Source: Gammaproteobacteria bacterium (GTDB lineage Bacteria > Pseudomonadota > Gammaproteobacteria > Methylococcales > Methylomonadaceae). From it: 38,119 bases of DNA. The notes beneath the pieces were generated by a model, which was not told the origin of the DNA, did no database searches, and saw nothing but the letters and a program-made list of their open reading frames with translations. The DNA is taken from positions 1 to 38,119 of the forward strand of contig VGVA01000010.1 in the NCBI GenBank assembly GCA_016874115.1, written 5' to 3'. The position numbers were made by a program, and so were the translations under genes. Below are positions 6,630 through 37,745 of this stretch, piece by piece. Positions within the stretch are counted from its first letter, which is position 1. Each line of letters begins with the position of its first letter.

Positions 6630-7652
6630 TTATTCCGCTGTCAGTTGATAAATCGCCAGATAGCCGCCCCAGTGGTTTTGATAAACCAGTTTAAGCCCCT
6701 CCGGCAGGTGTTTTAAGGAATTTACAAACGGCAGCAAACGCACCAGCAATGTGTTTTTTTCGCCAGCCGAATCTGTTTTAGGCGACCACATCCGATAGCT
6801 AAGACCGTTTTTTTGCACCAAGTAATCGCCGTTACCCTGATCTTGCGCCCATCGTTTAATTTGCGCGATATCGCCGTGCAAATTATCGTGCGCGTTGAAA
6901 GCATTAGCCGCAAAATTCAGGCGCGCGCCGCCGTAAGATTCCAGTTCCTGCAGGCGATACAGCAAGTCGGTTGTGATTAATAAATATACAGGCCGCGCTT
7001 TGCCGAACGTTTTTTTGATATCCACCACAGCTTGATCGCAATCCATGGTTAACCAGCGCGCCATTGCCGCCAGTTCCTTGGTTTCGACCTCCGACGCAAT
7101 CGGCATGTCGTCTTGCAAAGGGCGCATAGCCGCTTGATCGAATGAAATTGCAGCAGGATTTTTTATCCACGCGTCTCTTCCGCTAAGAAAATGAATGCGT
7201 TGACCGTCATCCCACCAGCTTAAAAACAGTGCATTCGGCGCAGTGTTCCGAGTGATGGCTTGAGCGGCTTCCTGCCAGATGGATTGCCGCAATTCGTTGG
7301 GATTGGGCAATACGCTCCCCGTTGACGGCTTTCCGGCATGATAGAGCATGACCCGATGCGGTTGATTCTTGTCTTTATAATGCGCCAGCAAAAAGCCGGA
7401 TGCGTCCTTGCCTTGCCATGTAATGTTATAGGCGGTAACCGAATCCGCCGGAAATGCACCTTGCAAATCAGTCGCTTGCCCTTGTTTGCGTTGCAGAGAA
7501 AATGAAGATGAATCTGCCGTTGACGCAACCCGGTTATTCCAGACAATCCTAAGTTGTGGATATAACACAGCGCCGCCCGTTATTAATAAGGCGGCGCTTA
7601 TTGCTATTAATACGCTTTTTCTTAACTTTACCGATTCCAGCTTAATCGGCAT
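6630..7652 (-). CDS. haoB: HaoB-like protein encoded with hydroxylamine dehydrogenase
   Basis: I call this HaoB mainly from position: it follows haoA directly and overlaps its 3' end, as haoB does in ammonia oxidisers and in methanotrophs such as Methylococcus capsulatus. The protein is about 340 residues with one N-terminal membrane segment (VLIAISAALLITGGAVLYP) and a large, presumably periplasmic, domain. It has no CxxCH motif. Its biochemical role is unsettled in the literature. I prefer the ATG at 7652, an 11-base overlap with haoA, over the TTG at 7682 that would add ten residues, because the membrane segment then begins near residue 14. No strong ribosome-binding site is seen, consistent with translational coupling. 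Confidence 0.75.
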   Translation of the reverse strand: MPIKLESVKLRKSVLIAISAALLITGGAVLYPQLRIVWNNRVASTADSSSFSLQRKQGQATDLQGAFPADSVTAYNITWQGKDASGFLLAHYKDKNQPHRVMLYHAGKPSTGSVLPNPNELRQSIWQEAAQAITRNTAPNALFLSWWDDGQRIHFLSGRDAWIKNPAAISFDQAAMRPLQDDMPIASEVETKELAAMARWLTMDCDQAVVDIKKTFGKARPVYLLITTDLLYRLQELESYGGARLNFAANAFNAHDNLHGDIAQIKRWAQDQGNGDYLVQKNGLSYRMWSPKTDSAGEKNTLLVRLLPFVNSLKHLPEGLKLVYQNHWGGYLAIYQLTAE

Positions 7653-9258
7653 TTTGTTTGGATTTAAAGGCAAGATATCCAATAAACAAGCCCAATGCCG
7701 CCAGAATCAGTCCAACCAGGATCGATCCGAAACTCGATTGCTGGGTGCTTTGTTCTACAGCACCCGCCTTGGCATTGGTTTTGACGGCCGCCGCTTCCCG
7801 CAGGCGGGTATCTTCGTCCATAATCTCGGCGTAATCCGCCATTAATTCAGACCAGCCTTCGGTATAGGTATAGCCGCCCGGATTGGCGTGGAAAATTCCT
7901 TTGTAATGTTTAATCACATCGTGTTCCCACATATTGGCGTATACCCGTTCGACATGGCTCGGATTGTTGCCTTTCGCCCAGAATAATTGGAAAAAGCCGC
8001 CTGCTTCATCTTTTTCCGGCTTCGGCGGCGCAGGTCTATTTGTGCTTTGGCCTGTCAATAATCCATCTTTAAACAGATCATTAATCACCTTTTTTGCTTC
8101 CTGTTCTACTTTCAGACCTTGGATGGTGCCTTTGTCGGCGGTGTCCAAATAAGCCTTCGCAAAGCTTTCGGAATGGCATAAGGTACAGGTTTGCAGCCAA
8201 GCTTGCTTACGCTCCTCAAACCAGGGATGGTTTAGATTGTCTGCAATTTTCGGTGTAGGATTGAATGCCCAGCGGACTTTACGCACCAGATTATGAGAAA
8301 ACTCGCCATGATATTCAAAATGGCACAACTGGCAGGTCGGCGCTGTGTAATTGCCCTTGGTTAGAGCCTCTTTCAGCGGCGCTTCAAAATTCCACTGTTT
8401 TTTGCCCATCGTCAGGAATTGCGTACCGTGCTTGGACAACATAAAATTTTCAAACTCATTGTGGTCTACGCCGTTATGGCAAGTAGCGCATGCTTCCGGT
8501 TGCCGGGCTTCCGCTACCGAGAATGAATGCCGGGTATGGCAGCCGTCGCATTTGTTTTGCTGATAATGGCAGGAGTCGCAACCTTGCGCGACTTCCCGTT
8601 CCGGCATGGCCGCCCAGACTGCATTCTCCACATTCGCTTGCCAGTCGACCGCATGCGACGGATGGCCTTTATCCCATTGTTTTTGCGGCCATTCTTGTTC
8701 TTTTTCCGACTCAGCCTCGGCAAATTCCTGCTGATGGCAGGTGCCGCAAGCCGCCCGATCCGGCATGATTAATTCTTTACTGTGATCCATGGTCTGTTTA
8801 CCGGCGCCGGCATGGCAATCGATACAACCGACCTGCTCTAACTGTTTACCGTCTTCAAGTAACCCCAGTTTCCGTAAATTGTTTTCAATTTCCGCTAACT
8901 TGGCTTTTTTATAAGCACGCACATCGCCGTCAGGCAAATTTCGGATCGCCGACATGTTGCTGTGTACGCTATTCTTCCAGGCATGAAAGGCTCCCGGCGT
9001 GGTCGCCTGATGACATCCGACGCAGTTTTCCTGGCTAAATTCGCCTTGAACCGTTTGTGGCGGTTTATAGAAATCTTTCGGATTCCAATATTTTTGGATG
9101 GGTATAGGCTGCCAAAAATCGCCATGACTGCCTTTGCCCGGATGGGTTTTATAGTAGTTATCTTTAACTTTGGCAAAATCGGCTTGTTCGGCCAAAACAA
9201 ATTGACCATTAATGAAGAACAGCACTGAAGCCAATACAGTCAGGAAGGCAGCTTTCAT
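7642..9258 (-). CDS. haoA: Hydroxylamine dehydrogenase, octaheme cytochrome c HaoA
   Basis: A 538-residue exported protein with signal peptide (cleavage near residue 23, LAEQ). It has exactly eight CxxCH heme sites, starting at residues 79, 145, 171, 227, 237, 257, 309 and 358, as in the HAO family. The fourth would carry the P460 catalytic heme. Y463/Y465 lie in the region where the family's cross-linking tyrosine is found (position inferred). HAO oxidises hydroxylamine. In methanotrophs it removes hydroxylamine formed when methane monooxygenase attacks ammonia. A hydrophobic segment at ~510-531 followed by lysines predicts a membrane anchor. A -10-like TATAAT lies at 9294-9299, and AGGTAA precedes the ATG. 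Confidence 0.93.
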   Translation of the reverse strand: MKAAFLTVLASVLFFINGQFVLAEQADFAKVKDNYYKTHPGKGSHGDFWQPIPIQKYWNPKDFYKPPQTVQGEFSQENCVGCHQATTPGAFHAWKNSVHSNMSAIRNLPDGDVRAYKKAKLAEIENNLRKLGLLEDGKQLEQVGCIDCHAGAGKQTMDHSKELIMPDRAACGTCHQQEFAEAESEKEQEWPQKQWDKGHPSHAVDWQANVENAVWAAMPEREVAQGCDSCHYQQNKCDGCHTRHSFSVAEARQPEACATCHNGVDHNEFENFMLSKHGTQFLTMGKKQWNFEAPLKEALTKGNYTAPTCQLCHFEYHGEFSHNLVRKVRWAFNPTPKIADNLNHPWFEERKQAWLQTCTLCHSESFAKAYLDTADKGTIQGLKVEQEAKKVINDLFKDGLLTGQSTNRPAPPKPEKDEAGGFFQLFWAKGNNPSHVERVYANMWEHDVIKHYKGIFHANPGGYTYTEGWSELMADYAEIMDEDTRLREAAAVKTNAKAGAVEQSTQQSSFGSILVGLILAALGLFIGYLAFKSKQNAD

Positions 9259-30939: not shown

Positions 30940-32706
30940 ATGCAACACCGAATTTTTGCCGCTTTATGGGGTAGTACCCTGCTACTGTTGGCTAGTACCG
31001 CCAGTTTTGCGGCCACCGATTTGCCGCCATCGGCTAAAGTTGAATTAGGGCCTAAAGAGGACGTATGTTCAAATTTTGTTTCTCCCGAGGCCCGCAAGGC
31101 GCAAGTGATCGATGGAGTTAATATTCAAGAATCGGTTCTGTGCGATCCCGATTCGCCGGAAGACATCGCCGCCTTCGTTAAAGGCACCAATAACATTTCC
31201 ATGGAAACGCTCATGGCGACCCAGTTGGCGTCCGATGCGATTACCATGACAGACGACATGGATAAGGACGGCGATCCCGACAAAATCGTCATCAAACTGG
31301 AAGTGGTTGAGATTAACGGCCATTCGCCTGACATTAAAGAGCCGATTACCACCTACGATATCGCGCCGGGAATACAGCCGACGTTCTGGGTGTTCACACC
31401 GAAAACGCGCGATATGTCCACGCGCAGCCTGTACGAACCCATTGCCAACCCCTTGCTGAGAGCGCCATCGCCGGTCATCAGGGTGGAGCAGAACGATGTC
31501 ATTTGGATTGTATTGGAAAATACCCATTACCTGCCGCACTCAATTCATCTGCACGGTATCGACCACCCGTTTATGGATATGAGCGGCGCCGGCAATGACG
31601 GCGTCGGACAGACCAGTAATATGGACACCATGCCCGGCGATGTAAAAACGTATGTGATTAAACCGCGCCAGCCCGGCACCATGTACTACCATTGTCACGT
31701 GCAGCCGCATGTCCATATTCCGATGGGTTTGCAGGGTATTTTTGTGGTGGAGGAAAACCGTCCCAACAACTGGGTGCAAACGTTTAACGTAGGAGCCGGT
31801 CAAGTGCGGCATCCGTCGGTGGCGGTTCTGGAAAAATATAGCAGGGAATATGATTTACATTATCAATCCCTGGATAAAGAATTGCATGAAGTAATTGCTA
31901 GATCGGCCAATGATCCACGTCTGATCGCCAAACACATGAACACGGAATACGACATAACCGATGCAGAAGACGACTATTTCTTGCTGAACGGAAAATCGTT
32001 TCCTTATACTCTGCGCGAATCTTTGATTCATATGGTAGAGAATGAAAAAGTAAAATTGCGGATACTGAACGGGCATACCGACTCCTTCGCCATGCACATT
32101 CACGGTCATAAGCCAACCATTACGCATTACGATGGCGTTGATAACGGCCCAAGTTCGTATATCACGCGAGATGTTCATGGTATGGTGCCGGCGCAACGTA
32201 TTGATTTGGAGCTTGATGGGAAAGACGATGGCTTGCACAGCTTTGGCCAAGGCATTTGGATGTTTCATGATCACGTTGAAAAATCGTTCACTACCAACGG
32301 TATTGGTGAAGGCGGCGACATTAGTTTGGTCGTTTATAAAGGTTACTATGACGATAAGGGCATACCGATGTCTCATGGTATGAGCCTGGAGCCTTACTTT
32401 TCAAAAAATATGTGGAAAGGACAATATCCTATCTGGCAAGATTACGACAAATGGCATAGTTTAGGCTTGCCCGATTTGCGCGCTGCTTATGAGTCTGCTA
32501 AAGTTGCCGTGCAAAAGGCACCGGTACAACCCGGAGCAAGTTCGATTCAATCTGCTAAACAGCAGGATGTTTTTGCGGTAAAACTGCTTTACGGCTTTTT
32601 GTTAGGCTTGCTTAGCTATTTAATTATCGTCAAACGCGAGCAGCTTTTGGCCTTGGCGAAACAAGGTTACGGAAAAGCTAAAAAATTGTTGCCTAAACGC
32701 ACATAA
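30940..32706 (+). CDS. Membrane-anchored multicopper oxidase
   Basis: A 588-residue exported protein with a signal peptide (cut near SFAATD). The first cupredoxin domain carries HSIHLHG (H200, H203, H205) and H251-C252-H253, with H257, H259 and M262, giving a type 1 copper site and trinuclear ligands. The second has HIHGH (H386-H390) and FHDH (H443, H445) but no type 1 cysteine. Residues ~103-115 (DDMDKDGDPDKIV) look like a calcium-binding loop. A hydrophobic helix at ~545-562 with a basic tail anchors it in the inner membrane. Family members oxidise metals, phenols or nitrogen compounds; the substrate here is unknown. It is preceded by an FNR-type box and contains no ATTAAT. Confidence 0.85.
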   Translation: MQHRIFAALWGSTLLLLASTASFAATDLPPSAKVELGPKEDVCSNFVSPEARKAQVIDGVNIQESVLCDPDSPEDIAAFVKGTNNISMETLMATQLASDAITMTDDMDKDGDPDKIVIKLEVVEINGHSPDIKEPITTYDIAPGIQPTFWVFTPKTRDMSTRSLYEPIANPLLRAPSPVIRVEQNDVIWIVLENTHYLPHSIHLHGIDHPFMDMSGAGNDGVGQTSNMDTMPGDVKTYVIKPRQPGTMYYHCHVQPHVHIPMGLQGIFVVEENRPNNWVQTFNVGAGQVRHPSVAVLEKYSREYDLHYQSLDKELHEVIARSANDPRLIAKHMNTEYDITDAEDDYFLLNGKSFPYTLRESLIHMVENEKVKLRILNGHTDSFAMHIHGHKPTITHYDGVDNGPSSYITRDVHGMVPAQRIDLELDGKDDGLHSFGQGIWMFHDHVEKSFTTNGIGEGGDISLVVYKGYYDDKGIPMSHGMSLEPYFSKNMWKGQYPIWQDYDKWHSLGLPDLRAAYESAKVAVQKAPVQPGASSIQSAKQQDVFAVKLLYGFLLGLLSYLIIVKREQLLALAKQGYGKAKKLLPKRT

Positions 32707-32718
32707 AATACGGTTTAG

Positions 32719-32748
32719 CATTGGCGTTAATAGGAGTTAACGCCAATG
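32719..32748 (+). promoter_or_regulatory. Hairpin enclosing the thiD ribosome-binding site and start codon
   Basis: CATTGGCGTTAA at 32719-32730 is perfectly complementary to TTAACGCCAATG at 32737-32748. The six-base loop TAGGAG is the ribosome-binding site, and the last three bases of the right arm are the thiD ATG. No T-tract follows, so this is not an intrinsic terminator. Folding would hide the start codon in the stem base. A regulatory role is inferred. Confidence 0.75.
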
Positions 32749-33555
32749 CAACCGCTCTCAGGTATGCCGATCAATCGTCCATTCGTCCTGACGCTTTCGG
32801 GTCATGATCCTAGCGGTGGGGCGGGGATACAGGCCGATCTGGAAGCCATCATCAGCCATCAATGCCGACCGGTCAGCGTCATTACGGCGTTAACCGCACA
32901 AGACACGCACAACGTCAGCAAGTTAATTCCTCAACTTCCACAAGACATTCTGCAACAAGCCAATTTATTAATGGCGGATGTACCTGTCAAGGTCTTCAAA
33001 ATTGGTTTGTTGGGACACGTGGAAACAGTAAAAACCATCTATACTTTCTTGCAGCAATTTCCTGACATTCCGGCGGTGTTCGATCCGGTATTAGCGGCTG
33101 GTGGCGGTCAGAATTTAGCCAACAACGCGTTGATTAATGCCATTAATGAATGGTTGCTTGCCAAGGTAACGGTATTAACGCCGAACAGCCTGGAGGCGCG
33201 CAAACTTACCGGCTTGAATTATATTCATGATTGCGGCGTACAGTTAAGCAAAAGCGGCTGCCGTTATGTGCTGATAACCGGTGCGCACGAAGATTCGGCA
33301 GAGGTTATTAATCAACTTTATCACGACGGTGACTGCATACAACGCTATACGTGGCCGCGGTTGCCTCATAGCTATCATGGTTCTGGCTGTACGCTCGCCG
33401 CCAGTATTGCTGCCCTAATGGCGCGCGGATTAACGGTATTGGATGCGATTGCCGAGGCGCAGCAATATACCTGGAATGCGTTGTCCTCAGGTTTTCAACC
33501 AGGCAAAGGACAATATCTGCCTGACCGGTTTTTCTGGCTAAATCAACAATGTTGA
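32746..33555 (+). CDS. thiD: Hydroxymethylpyrimidine/phosphomethylpyrimidine kinase ThiD
   Basis: A 269-residue ribokinase-fold enzyme that phosphorylates HMP twice to HMP-PP for thiamine synthesis. Signatures are SGHDPSGGAGIQADLEAI at the N-terminus and LPHSYHGSGCTLAASIAA (anion hole and catalytic region) near the C-terminus. The start at 32746 has AGGAG nine bases upstream, both within a perfect hairpin. An ATG six codons later is possible but lacks a properly spaced site. No TPP riboswitch consensus is seen upstream. The 3' end overlaps thiE by seven bases. Confidence 0.94.
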   Translation: MQPLSGMPINRPFVLTLSGHDPSGGAGIQADLEAIISHQCRPVSVITALTAQDTHNVSKLIPQLPQDILQQANLLMADVPVKVFKIGLLGHVETVKTIYTFLQQFPDIPAVFDPVLAAGGGQNLANNALINAINEWLLAKVTVLTPNSLEARKLTGLNYIHDCGVQLSKSGCRYVLITGAHEDSAEVINQLYHDGDCIQRYTWPRLPHSYHGSGCTLAASIAALMARGLTVLDAIAEAQQYTWNALSSGFQPGKGQYLPDRFFWLNQQC

Positions 33556-34169
33556 AATTTCCTGCCCGCGGGCTTTATGCCATCACCCAAACGGAAAACA
33601 AATCAGCCGGGCAGGTTATTAATGATGTTTCCGCCGCTATTCGTGGTGGGGTTAACGTTGTCCAATACCGCGATAAAAATCCAAGCGACGCAATAAAGCT
33701 TGCTGGTGATTTGGTAGCAATTTGCCGACAGCATAATGTGCCATTAATCATTAATGACGACATCGACCTTGCTGTCAGGGTCGAAGCCGATGGCGTTCAT
33801 TTAGGCAAGGACGATGGCGATATTAATAGCGCAAGAGAACGGCTGGGTGACGAAGCTATCATTGGCATATCTTGTTATAATTCCGTGGAGCGCGCCCTTA
33901 TGGCACAAGAAAAAGGTGCGACTTACGTGGCGTTTGGGCGTTTTTTCCCTTCCAACTCAAAGCCTTTGGCGTCGCCTGCCGACGTTGCCACCTTAAAGCA
34001 GGCAAAACAAATTTTAACCATTCCGATTGTGGTGATCGGCGGTATTATGCCGGACAATGGCAGTCAATTATTAATGGCTGGCGCTGACGTTTTAGCGGTT
34101 ATCGGCGGGATTTTCGATAGCGACCCGGAACAATCGGCACGGGCTTACCAGGGTTTATTCCATGATTAA
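33549..34169 (+). CDS. thiE: Thiamine-phosphate synthase ThiE
   Basis: A 206-residue TIM-barrel enzyme that couples HMP-PP with thiazole phosphate to give thiamine phosphate. Typical blocks are VQYRDKNPSD, the metal-binding LIINDDIDLAV, DGVHLGKDD, YVAFGRFFPS and the phosphate site VVIGGI. It overlaps thiD at its start and soxX at its end (eight bases), so all three are translationally coupled. The combination of thiamine genes with sox genes is unusual and may simply reflect a shared transcript. Confidence 0.94.
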   Translation: MLKFPARGLYAITQTENKSAGQVINDVSAAIRGGVNVVQYRDKNPSDAIKLAGDLVAICRQHNVPLIINDDIDLAVRVEADGVHLGKDDGDINSARERLGDEAIIGISCYNSVERALMAQEKGATYVAFGRFFPSNSKPLASPADVATLKQAKQILTIPIVVIGGIMPDNGSQLLMAGADVLAVIGGIFDSDPEQSARAYQGLFHD

Positions 34170-34524
34170 GTTAATGGCAAAATCGATAACCCTTTTGTTG
34201 AGTGTTACTTTATTGGCTTGTGCCGCAACGCTGGAGAAAGAATCCGGACAGAAAGCCGAAACAGGCAAGGAAATCGCGTTTAGCCGCAATAAAGGCAACT
34301 GCTTGGCTTGTCACGAGATTGAAGGCGGCGAATTTCCTGGCAATATCGGCCCGCCACTAAAGGAATTACCAAAGCGGTTCAAAAATAAACAACAACTGCG
34401 CGAACAAATTCGGGATGCTACTCGCTTTAATCCTGAAACCAGTATGCCGCCGTTCGGCAAAAACAAAATCCTGAGTGCAGAAGAAATCGATCTACTCGTG
34501 GATTACCTTTGGAGTTTACAATAA
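34162..34524 (+). CDS. soxX: Sulfur-oxidation cytochrome c SoxX
   Basis: A 120-residue monoheme cytochrome: heme site CLACH at residues 47-51, axial Met near M95 in TSMPPFG, and DYLWSLQ at the C-terminus as in SoxX. SoxX pairs with SoxA to attach thiosulfate to the SoxY carrier in the periplasm. The N-terminus (LLSVTLLAC, Cys20) fits a lipoprotein signal as well as a normal signal peptide, so SoxX may be membrane-attached. Its ATG lies within thiE, whose stop is eight bases further on. Confidence 0.87.
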   Translation: MIKLMAKSITLLLSVTLLACAATLEKESGQKAETGKEIAFSRNKGNCLACHEIEGGEFPGNIGPPLKELPKRFKNKQQLREQIRDATRFNPETSMPPFGKNKILSAEEIDLLVDYLWSLQ

Positions 34525-34553
34525 TCAATTATTATCGATCCGGGTACGCAGCA

Positions 34554-35012
34554 ATGATGATTAATAGAAGAAAATTTCTGAAACTTTTACTGGTCATCGG
34601 CACAGTTGGAACGGGTATGTGGAAAACTGTGTCGGCGGCTGTTGGCTGGCCGGTATCGGACTTTGCGCCGATGAATGTCGATGCGGCAACAAAGCAACTA
34701 CTTAAAGGAAAAACCGCAACCGAAACCGATAAGATCGAATTAACCATTCCGGAAATCGCCGAAAACGGAGCAGTAGTGCCGGTAACAGTTTCAAGTAGTC
34801 TGGAAGGCATTAAAAGTGTTGCATTAATTGCAGAATTCAACCCCGTACCGCTTGCCATCCAGATGTTCGTTACGCCGGATATCGAGCCGACTTTATCCAC
34901 GCGATTGAAGCTTGCCGAGACGTCATTCGTCTATGCTTTTGCGGAAACTGAAAACGGCTGGTTCAGCACCCGGAAAAAAGTTAAAGTCACCATTGGCGGT
35001 TGTGGGGGTTAA
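34554..35012 (+). CDS. soxY: Thiosulfate-oxidation carrier protein SoxY
   Basis: A 152-residue carrier ending in GGCGG, the invariant SoxY swinging arm whose cysteine holds the sulfur substrate. The N-terminal NRRKFLKLLLVIGTVG is a twin-arginine signal, as usual for SoxY, exported together with SoxZ. I start at the ATG at 34554, which gives that signal; the frame is open from 34509 but the extra residues are not family-like. No clear ribosome-binding site is visible. SoxZ starts one base after its stop codon. Confidence 0.92.
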   Translation: MMINRRKFLKLLLVIGTVGTGMWKTVSAAVGWPVSDFAPMNVDAATKQLLKGKTATETDKIELTIPEIAENGAVVPVTVSSSLEGIKSVALIAEFNPVPLAIQMFVTPDIEPTLSTRLKLAETSFVYAFAETENGWFSTRKKVKVTIGGCGG

Positions 35013-35013
35013 C

Positions 35014-35325
35014 ATGTCCAGCATCAAAATCCGCAGCAAACGCATGGATGGCAACACGCAGATTCGCACCTTGATTTCGCATCCCATGGAGCATGGACGC
35101 AATAAGGATAAGACCACCAACAAGCTTATCCCGATGCATTTTATACAGGTGTTAACGGTTCGCCATAACGGCAAGGTGGTAGCGGCGTGTAACATGGGGG
35201 CGGGCGTTTCCAAAGATCCTTACTTTGCGTTCATGCTGAAAGGCGGTGAAGCAGGTGATGAAATCGTTATCGATTGGGTGGATAATCTGGGTAACAAAGA
35301 TTCTGCGACCCATAAAATAAGTTAA
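35014..35325 (+). CDS. soxZ: Thiosulfate-oxidation protein SoxZ
   Basis: A 103-residue immunoglobulin-like partner of SoxY, with the SoxZ blocks IRTLISHPMEHGRNKD and GDEIVIDWVDNLG. It has no signal peptide and is normally co-exported with SoxY. The ATG lies one base beyond the soxY stop, with the GGTGGGGG-like 3' end of soxY serving as the ribosome-binding region. A longer frame from 34912 reads through soxY out of frame and is rejected. Confidence 0.93.
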   Translation: MSSIKIRSKRMDGNTQIRTLISHPMEHGRNKDKTTNKLIPMHFIQVLTVRHNGKVVAACNMGAGVSKDPYFAFMLKGGEAGDEIVIDWVDNLGNKDSATHKIS

Positions 35326-35340
35326 TACTCTTCACTTATA

Positions 35341-36219
35341 ATGAAGTTAAATCGTAGCTTCAACACACAGCAATCGAAGCAGTATATTTCTTATTGTTAT
35401 AAGCTGTTTTGTATTTTATTAATAATCTTTTCGGCCTTATCAAGCGCATCGCCACTGCAGGATCAAACGCAGTTGAGGCGATATTACCAGGAACATTTTC
35501 CTAACCTTACATTAAAAGATTACAGTAACGGAATATACGCCATCGACCCGGTTGCCCGGCAATCCTGGCAAGCGATAGAAGAATTTCCACCATACGAAAA
35601 CGCGATTGAACAAGGTGAAAGGCTATTCGCCGCTGCATTACCCGATGGTAAACAATACGCCGACTGCTTTGATAACAAAGGTATGGGCATTGCCAATACC
35701 TATCCGCGCTGGGATACCGCCAAACAGATAGTAGTAACCTTGGCGGCTGCCATTAATGAATGCCGCGCACACCATCATGCCGATGAATTGGCGTATAACC
35801 AAGCCGACATGCTGAATGTGCTGGCGTATATGGCGTACACGTCGCGAGGTAAACCTATTAATGTGGTGGTTCCTGAAAAAGATGAAAACGCACTTCAAGC
35901 CTACGAACAGGGTAAAGCATTTTATTATCAGCGCCAAGGCCAGTTGAATTTTGCCTGCGCAACTTGTCATATACAAAATGTCGGCAAAAAACTGCGGGCG
36001 GAAATTCTCAGTCCGTCTTTAGGACACACCAATAACTGGCCGACGTACCGGCTGAAGTGGGGTGAGATGGGTAGCTTGCATCGACGCTTTGCCGAATGCC
36101 TAGCTAATATCCAAGCCAAAGCCTACCCGGAGCAAAGTGTGGAGTTCCGTAATCTGGAATATTTTTTAAGTTACACCAGTAATGGCGTACCGATATCTGG
36201 TCCTAGCGTACGGAAGTGA
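35341..36219 (+). CDS. soxA: Sulfur-oxidation cytochrome c SoxA
   Basis: A 292-residue exported cytochrome with a long N-region before the hydrophobic signal (FCILLIIFSALSSAS). Only one heme motif is present, CATCH at 206-210. The first domain instead has C109 and C141, which probably form a disulfide, placing it in the monoheme SoxA class. C253 in RRFAECLANI is the conserved cysteine heme ligand. With SoxX it joins thiosulfate to SoxY. It starts 15 bases after soxZ. soxB and soxCD are not in this window. Confidence 0.88.
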   Translation: MKLNRSFNTQQSKQYISYCYKLFCILLIIFSALSSASPLQDQTQLRRYYQEHFPNLTLKDYSNGIYAIDPVARQSWQAIEEFPPYENAIEQGERLFAAALPDGKQYADCFDNKGMGIANTYPRWDTAKQIVVTLAAAINECRAHHHADELAYNQADMLNVLAYMAYTSRGKPINVVVPEKDENALQAYEQGKAFYYQRQGQLNFACATCHIQNVGKKLRAEILSPSLGHTNNWPTYRLKWGEMGSLHRRFAECLANIQAKAYPEQSVEFRNLEYFLSYTSNGVPISGPSVRK

Positions 36220-36294: not shown

Positions 36295-37401
36295 ATGATG
36301 ATATATTTCGATCATAACGCTACAACCCCCATTGATACCCGGGTGCTGGATGCGATGCTGCCATTTCTGAAACTGTTTTACGGCAACCCGTCCAGTTTAT
36401 ACCGGCAGGGCAGGTTGGTGCGAACAGCAATCGATACGGCCAGAGAACAAGTGGCGGCCTTGATTAATGTGCAGCCTGCGCAGATTATTTTTACCAGCGG
36501 CGGTACCGAGGCTAATAATCTGGCATTAACCGCCGTCAACTCTAGGGCAAAAATTGCGATTTCCGCGATAGAGCATCCATCCGTTAGCGAACCGGCGCAA
36601 CGGTTGCAAAGCCAGCGCGGTCAGTTGCAGCTGATTAACGTGGACAGCAACGGCGTAATCAGGCCGGAAGAAATAACGGCATTATGCCGCGCCAAGCCGG
36701 ATTTCGTCTCCCTCATGCTGGCGAACAACGAAACCGGTGTGATTCAGGATATCGCTAACCATGCGCATCCTTTGGCGGAGCAGGGTATCATCGTCCATAC
36801 CGATGCAGTACAGGCGATTGGTAAAATACCAGTGGATTTTACCCAGTTGGGCGTACAATTAATGTCATTGTCCAGCCATAAGATCTACGGTCCCAAAGGT
36901 TGCGGTGCATTAGTCATCGATAAAAAGGTATCATTAACTCCCATGATTCTGGGCGGCGGTCAAGAGCAAGGTTGCCGCGCCGGTACGGAAAACGTGGCGG
37001 CGATTGTCGGCTTCGGCAAAGCGGCGGAACTTGCCGGCGCGGAAATTGCCCAACGGCATACGTATTTGCGGCAATTGCGCGATCTGCTGGAAAGCCAACT
37101 AATGGCAATTCCCGCTATCCAGATCTTTGCACAAAAAGTAGACCGCTTACCGAATACGGTTCAGTTCGGGGTAGCAGGGCAGGATGGCGAGATGCTATTA
37201 ATGAAGTTGGATCGCAAAGGTATCGCCGTATCCAGCGGTTCTGCCTGCGCCAGCGGCGGCGGCAAATCCAGCCCGGTATTGACCGCAATGGGCGTGGATG
37301 AGGCAACAGCCAAAAGCGCTATCAGAGTCAGTGTAGGTATGGCAAACACAGAAACGGAAGTTAATGAATTTATTAATCAATTGAAATCGCTAATTAATTA
37401 A
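36295..37401 (+). CDS. Cysteine desulfurase, NifS/IscS-like
   Basis: A 368-residue PLP enzyme that releases sulfur from cysteine as a persulfide for Fe-S or thiolation pathways. The PLP lysine is in SSHKIYGPKG, cofactor contacts in SGGTEANNLAL and HTDAVQAIG, and the active cysteine loop in SSGSACASGGGKSSP near residue 325. Starts at 36295 or 36298 are both possible; the upstream ATG at 36291, in ATTAATG, is out of frame. It follows soxA by 75 bases and abuts the IscA-type gene. No IscR, IscU or HscBA is nearby, so the specific system is uncertain. Confidence 0.9.
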   Translation: MMIYFDHNATTPIDTRVLDAMLPFLKLFYGNPSSLYRQGRLVRTAIDTAREQVAALINVQPAQIIFTSGGTEANNLALTAVNSRAKIAISAIEHPSVSEPAQRLQSQRGQLQLINVDSNGVIRPEEITALCRAKPDFVSLMLANNETGVIQDIANHAHPLAEQGIIVHTDAVQAIGKIPVDFTQLGVQLMSLSSHKIYGPKGCGALVIDKKVSLTPMILGGGQEQGCRAGTENVAAIVGFGKAAELAGAEIAQRHTYLRQLRDLLESQLMAIPAIQIFAQKVDRLPNTVQFGVAGQDGEMLLMKLDRKGIAVSSGSACASGGGKSSPVLTAMGVDEATAKSAIRVSVGMANTETEVNEFINQLKSLIN

Positions 37402-37415
37402 TGATTGAGGAAATT

Positions 37416-37745
37416 ATGGCAGAGGTATCGTTTACGGAAAGCGCTGCACGGCAGATTAAAAAACAGTTGGATAAACGCGGCAAAGGTATCGGTTTAAAAA
37501 TAGGCGTTAAAAAATCGGGCTGTTCCGGCTATGCCTATACGTTGGATTATTCGGATGCGGTAACGGAGGACGAAAAAATCTTCGAAGATTTTGGTGTTAA
37601 AGTGATCGTGCATAAAGACGATCTGCCGTTGCTGGCGGGCATTCAGCTTGATTACCGTCGGGAAGGTATTAATGAAGCCTTCAAGTTCAATAATCCTAAT
37701 GTAACCGGCAGTTGCGGTTGCGGTGAAAGTTTTTCGGTAAGTTAA
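37416..37745 (+). CDS. IscA/HesB-family iron-sulfur cluster assembly protein
   Basis: A 109-residue A-type carrier with the three conserved cysteines in KKSGCSGYAY and TGSCGCGESF, which bind iron or an Fe-S cluster. The ATG at 37416 has GAGGAA five bases upstream; a start at 37401, overlapping the desulfurase stop, is less likely. It is probably co-transcribed with the desulfurase, making a two-gene Fe-S unit. I cannot separate IscA from related A-type members by eye. Confidence 0.9.
   Translation: MAEVSFTESAARQIKKQLDKRGKGIGLKIGVKKSGCSGYAYTLDYSDAVTEDEKIFEDFGVKVIVHKDDLPLLAGIQLDYRREGINEAFKFNNPNVTGSCGCGESFSVS

Follow-up and report, generated by a model that had tools for sequence, protein, structure and literature searches.

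What connects a pair of thiamine genes with a set of sox genes that directly follows it in a gammaproteobacterium of the family Methylomonadaceae? On contig VGVA01000010.1 of assembly GCA_016874115.1 (38,119 nucleotides, hereafter the window), thiD, thiE, soxX, soxY, soxZ and soxA follow one another in this order on the plus strand and are succeeded by genes for a cysteine desulfurase and an IscA-type protein (table 1). The window is one whole contig of an assembly of 2.48 Mb, which is 94% complete and consists of 212 contigs. The original prediction described this run as thiamine genes translationally fused to a partial Sox system and proposed either a transcript shared by chance or a sulfur-transfer role for SoxYZ and SoxAX. 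The best reading of our results is that an ordinary sulfur-oxidising system occupies a conserved neighbourhood and that no new sulfur-transfer pathway is involved: it is quite likely that soxXYZA of the window belong to a thiosulfate-oxidising Sox system and lie in an old thiDE-sox operon, with soxB located elsewhere in the genome and with descendants of the operon decaying piecemeal.

The window genome encodes a PmoA-family protein (429 bits to PF02461) and appears to belong to a gammaproteobacterial methanotroph near Methylobacter, because the named genomes with the most similar thiE (the best 80 of 572 loci) are mostly those of methanotrophs, namely Methylobacter, Methylomonas, Methyloprofundus, Crenothrix, other Methylococcaceae or Methylococcales and methanotrophic symbionts. 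SoxX and SoxA both score above their curated cut-offs, and their haem CxxCH sites align to those of solved SoxXA. SoxA lacks the first CxxCH of 1h31_A and retains one CxxCH haem site together with a cysteine that aligns with one in 1h31_A and that we take to be catalytic. SoxY and SoxZ also exceed their cut-offs, and SoxY ends in GGCGG, as expected of a SoxYZ carrier. The set had been called partial for want of soxB, which lies on a different contig of this genome (G000:C59:6981-8636; TIGR04486, 754.7 bits, cut-off 550) as an intact open reading frame (ORF) of 551 aa, the start of which resembles a Tat lipoprotein signal and which can be aligned along the solved SoxB 2wdc_A. The genome search proposed at the outset for soxB and soxCD thus succeeded for soxB; the soxC model TIGR04555 matched nothing at E<=0.001 in this 94% complete assembly, and SoxD was not searched for. 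With soxB found and soxC unmatched, the window genome codes for SoxXYZAB without SoxC. Neither the 261-aa ORF preceding soxB nor RpsF was matched in 20 soxB loci of relatives (flanks of about 1.5 kb), and a conserved neighbour of soxB was therefore dropped as a candidate.

The adjacency of thi and sox genes was followed in 61 related genomes, 37 of which belong to the family of the window. SoxX is found in 21 of these 37, in 13 of them by the SoxX model (among these G000, the window genome itself, G003, G013, G014, G015, G017, G025, G026 and G032; matches below the cut-off were left out) and in the rest by tblastn beside soxA. In all 21 soxX is immediately preceded by a thi gene of the same strand, thiE in 20 and thiD in one (G014); the distance between thiE and soxX ranges from overlap to +140 bases, and the overlap of 7-8 bases is not itself conserved. 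It had been anticipated that separation of thiDE from sox in close relatives, together with a complete sox set elsewhere, would speak against a link; soxB does lie elsewhere in the genome, but close relatives show no separation of thiDE from sox. In two further families of the order, soxXYZA is present without adjoining thiDE (G042, G056 and G059; G043 and G049). Neither thiD nor thiE occurs in 40 soxY regions sampled one per genome in other orders of the class, which are the top of the listed places, several of them cut by contig ends and some being second soxYZ copies, nor beside 30 SoxX loci of the class with flanks of up to 1.5 kb.

Among the best 80 of the 572 thiE loci in named genomes, soxX is the next gene in 15, soxYZ without soxX follows in 8 (including Candidatus Methylobacter titanis and Crenothrix polyspora), and neither is seen in 57, where in some cases the contig stops shortly behind thiE. 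Of 14 soxX-linked named genomes searched for SoxB, 7 contain it, as against none of the 8 with soxYZ only and none of 11 others, in a survey for which genome completeness is not given and which shares some genomes with the relatives set. Named genomes with soxX, mostly accompanied by soxYZA, and without soxB above the cut-off (L258, L261, L264, L270, L272, L279 and L293) include methanotrophic mussel symbionts; in the symbiont of Bathymodiolus platifrons (L258:7678-8230), one of the 15 named loci in which soxX follows thiE, soxX appears as two pieces with no soxYZA after it, which suggests decay. A whole-word search of the literature found no paper joining thiE, soxX and operon.

A chance neighbourhood confined to the window genome is hardly credible, since it is refuted for the thi-sox adjacency by the 21 soxX-bearing genomes of the family, and plain chance is too weak an explanation for a linkage that is conserved. 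What does fit such an accident is the downstream pair, which, of all the loci compared, follows the sox genes in the window alone: a search of 125 thi/sox loci from relatives gave no match to the desulfurase and none to the IscA-type protein beside the sox genes. We do not count these two genes as part of the system, regarding them as presumable neighbours in the window genome only, and a Sox-desulfurase module was rejected for the lack of desulfurase matches.

Further evidence comes from a series of partial clusters. Across genomes, thiDE is accompanied by soxXYZA, by soxX alone, by soxYZ alone, directly by moeA, or by none of these. In five genomes (G014, G015, G017, G026 and G032) soxX is kept with thi while soxYZA or parts of it lie elsewhere, and in 12 genomes of four families soxYZ alone follows thiE (G009, G016, G022, G028, G036; G044, G050; G046; G041, G052, G055, G058). 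No single sox gene always stays with thiDE; the piece that is left is sometimes soxX and sometimes soxYZ. In many loci soxA or soxZ is succeeded by the molybdenum-cofactor gene moeA, which in L262 stands directly after thiE, and in L178 and L181 the ORF after thiE resembles moeA by its start (not scored). In G044 and G050 the order is thiD-thiE-soxY-soxZ-moeA, with SoxY and SoxZ separate. A tree of SoxYZ places the family of the window together with G044/G050 on one branch (86/89), which holds both the complete and the orphan SoxYZ of that family (orphan denoting SoxYZ in genomes with neither SoxX nor SoxA and without SoxB), the orphan rows lying at several places inside it; the rows of family f6 stand apart on a long branch. 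Because the order soxX-Y-Z-A outside the order of bacteria is the same as at the window locus, it would be simpler for an older thiDE-soxXYZA-moeA block to have lost soxX and soxA than for these two genes to have been gained later on both sides of soxYZ; for families f4 and f6 the origin may be independent. Thiosulfate-oxidation genes would then be an old, syntenic trait of this methanotroph family, and its partial clusters a natural experiment on how SoxYZ acts without SoxXAB.

The arrangement in the window is compact. The spacings between successive genes from thiD to soxA are -7, -8, +29, +1 and +15 bases, which bears out the predicted end-to-start overlaps of thiD, thiE and soxX and the predicted close succession of soxY, soxZ and soxA; the desulfurase gene and the IscA-type gene likewise follow as described, 75 bases separating soxA from the former. 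The term "translationally fused" does not hold, since thiD, thiE and soxX are separate ORFs, each with its own ATG. From this spacing we infer that thiDE and the sox genes are co-transcribed as an operon. ThiE of the window is the only match above the family cut-off in its genome, where two more fall below it (79 and 21 bits). Control of thiD by a thiamine pyrophosphate (TPP) riboswitch was dropped as a candidate, as no Rfam match at gathering scores was obtained in the whole window. The multicopper oxidase gene upstream of thiD recurs there in the same-genus loci L037, L041 (in two pieces), L042, L050 and L051, and the match in L040 is a contig-end piece; in L219 a relative of this oxidase lies several kilobases from thiDE-soxYZ.

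Table 1. Features of the thi-sox locus and of its surroundings in the window.
Feature	Position	Strand	Evidence
thiD, hydroxymethylpyrimidine (phosphate) kinase	32746..33555	+	PF08543 228 bits (cut-off 27); TIGR00097 187 bits, below equivalog cut-off 205
thiE, thiamine phosphate synthase	33549..34169	+	TIGR00693 190 bits (cut-off 145); matches solved thiamin phosphate synthase 1g4t
soxX, monohaem cytochrome, probable lipoprotein (LLAC)	34162..34524	+	TIGR04485 95 bits (cut-off 61); 1h31_B; lipobox-like pattern
soxY, carrier with Tat signal and GGCGG end	34554..35012	+	TIGR04488 (SoxY_true) 145 bits (cut-off 125); tail and Tat motif
soxZ	35014..35325	+	TIGR04490 (SoxZ_true) 126 bits (cut-off 76), scored from ORF residue 5
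soxA, one CxxCH haem site	35341..36219	+	TIGR04484 228 bits (cut-off 110); alignment to 1h31_A
Cysteine desulfurase, NifS/IscS type	36295..37401	+	TIGR03402 410 bits, below cut-off 531
IscA-type protein	37401..37745	+	TIGR00049 108 bits (cut-off 59)
Multicopper oxidase	30940..32706	+	PF07732, PF07731; ends 39 bases upstream of thiD
Multihaem cytochrome	7642-9258	-	seven-haem Pfam domain PF13447, 491 bits

An ordinary Sox system behind a thiamine pair could have arisen as follows. The ancestor would have carried the operon thiD-thiE-soxX-soxY-soxZ-soxA, perhaps extended by moeA, in which thiDE, the thiamine gene pair of the genome, would have brought the sox genes under a housekeeping transcript and into translational coupling, and descendants would have lost or moved different sox pieces. 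Judged from the protein families, SoxXA would link thiosulfate to the SoxY cysteine, SoxB would release sulfate and the electrons would enter the periplasmic cytochrome pool. In Methylobacter sp. S3L5C, soxB and sqr transcripts are reported to be raised by sulfide and dissolved organic matter (PMC12211021). Three points weigh against this explanation. In four families the soxYZ genes remain beside thiDE although SoxXAB is missing, and a tie between SoxYZ and thiDE could replace passive decay; five genomes with soxX or soxA lack soxB above the cut-off (G013, G014, G026, G043 and G049), which means that the full pathway is not universal; and the scan for terminator-like sites on the plus strand, in which the gaps from thiD to the desulfurase contain none, is little informative, being no better than shuffles (8 sites against 9.4).

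A transfer of sulfur to thiamine or another sulfur-bearing cofactor, carried out by SoxYZ together with SoxXA and the desulfurase, could draw on the same conserved linkage, on moeA, which so often follows, and on the 12 genomes that retain soxYZ beside thiDE without SoxXAB. We nevertheless rate it as very improbable. On the one hand, the partners seem to be in different compartments: export or lipoprotein signals are visible in SoxX, SoxY, SoxA and SoxB (judged by eye and with simple patterns), whereas none was seen by eye in ThiD and ThiE, on which no predictor was run. Because the Sox proteins would be exported and ThiD and ThiE cytosolic, transfer from Sox to thiamine is unlikely. On the other hand, ThiD and ThiE handle no sulfur, as they act on the pyrimidine and on the joining of the two halves of thiamine and not on sulfur insertion, and there is no supported chemistry for a thiamine link. 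The desulfurase that would mobilise the sulfur has no match in the 125 loci of relatives, soxX alone can be the piece retained with thi, and 57 of the best 80 thiE loci have no neighbouring sox gene, although some of these contigs end early. The sulfur-transfer role proposed for SoxYZ and SoxAX is thus unsupported as far as thiamine is concerned.

If the thi-sox operon is indeed the remnant of an ordinary Sox system, what does SoxYZ do where its partners are gone? SoxY (PF13501) occurs in 47 of the 61 genomes, 26 of which have SoxX or SoxA above the cut-off and 21 of which are orphans, six of these (G041, G044, G050, G052, G055 and G058) without a run of the SoxX model. SoxA-like matches below the cut-off (46-59 bits) in G046, G052, G055, G057 and G058 are probably other cytochromes. 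The SoxY cysteine is kept in all 21 orphans, whereas the exact GGCGG end is found in only two of them (G009 and G023) as against all 26 SoxX/A genomes, in G032 for example. Because these 26 include five without SoxB, the GGCGG end goes with SoxXA rather than with SoxB. Four orphan SoxY proteins were scanned with the SoxY_true model (cut-off 125), of which those of G009 (126) and G036 (136) pass and those of G028 (117) and G041 (53) fail. The loci L214-L220, L224-L226, L361 and L362 show thiD-thiE-soxY-soxZ in genomes with no soxX, soxA or soxB found, the SoxY cysteine being kept and GGCGG mostly lost.

The orphans overlap with flavocytochrome c sulfide dehydrogenase (FCSD), the PF09242 domain of which scores above the Pfam cut-off of 26 in 12 of the 61 genomes. 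Strong matches of 62-81 bits, a line drawn after the scores were seen, are confined to ten genomes, all with orphan SoxYZ (G009, G018, G023, G036, G039, G046, G051, G054, G057 and G060). Fisher's test gives p = 4e-6 for the strong matches and 2e-4 at the Pfam cut-off, values that ignore kinship, six of the ten genomes being one family. In G009 the match falls in an ORF pair resembling fccA-fccB, and the matching ORF has no NCBIfam match above the cut-off. It is conceivable, if rather doubtful, that in relatives without SoxX, SoxA and SoxB SoxYZ is a stand-alone periplasmic carrier taking sulfane sulfur from FCSD or a similar enzyme. The invariant cysteine beside a mostly lost GGCGG end, the confinement of the strong matches and the fccA-fccB-like pair are in its favour, but two SoxX/A genomes (G007 and G035) have weak matches of 29-30 bits that are still above the Pfam cut-off, and 11 of the 21 orphans have no PF09242 match, so that FCSD cannot be the only partner of SoxYZ. 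The window genome itself has SoxXAB and no PF09242 match. Extended to the Methylococcales as a whole, the tentative proposal is that SoxYZ is separable from SoxXAB, is loaded by FCSD or another enzyme that oxidises sulfide, loses its GGCGG end by decay and is often expressed from a thiDE-moeA housekeeping operon. In that case the GGCGG end would be needed only with SoxXA and the invariant cysteine would carry the function of SoxYZ. Since GGCGG is lost together with SoxXA and the orphans coincide in part with FCSD, the role of SoxYZ can be tested in cultured methanotrophs.

Among known systems, the window genome comes close to the truncated Sox system, that is, SoxXYZAB without SoxCD, as reported in symbiotic bacteria and in purple sulfur bacteria; the sulfane dehydrogenase SoxC defines the complete system. 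The likeness lies in the presence of SoxX, Y, Z, A and B with no soxC found. The differences lie in the position of soxXYZA behind thiDE and in a lipobox-like motif of SoxX, which a crude pattern (with at least one doubtful match, L129) finds in 18 of 21 SoxX of the family but in 4 of 56 of the class, and which suggests a membrane-anchored SoxX. The quinoprotein dehydrogenase-associated SoxYZ-like fusion (TIGR04557) is likewise a SoxYZ-type carrier of C1-using bacteria, but SoxY and SoxZ of the window are separate and reach only 79 and 62 bits against its cut-off of 140. A second SoxY-family frame of the genome (G000:C151:3425-3757; about 300 aa) has the size of this fusion. Sox genes have been reported in the same organism group, as soxXYZABCD in a Methylobacter metagenome-assembled genome (PMC13322032) and as soxB in Methylobacter strain S3L5C (PMC12211021). 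The gene set is the same, but thiDE is unmentioned in the excerpts of these two reports, and SoxC was not found in the window genome. Finally, SoxYZ and SoxCD without SoxABX are described in Methylococcus (PMC8527097), whose genome paper calls the role of the orphan SoxYZ not clear, and in Methylotetracoccus (PMC6553558). As far as these descriptions go, they share with our data the orphan SoxYZ of methanotrophs, whereas the window genome retains soxXAB and the orphans linked to thiDE belong to its relatives.

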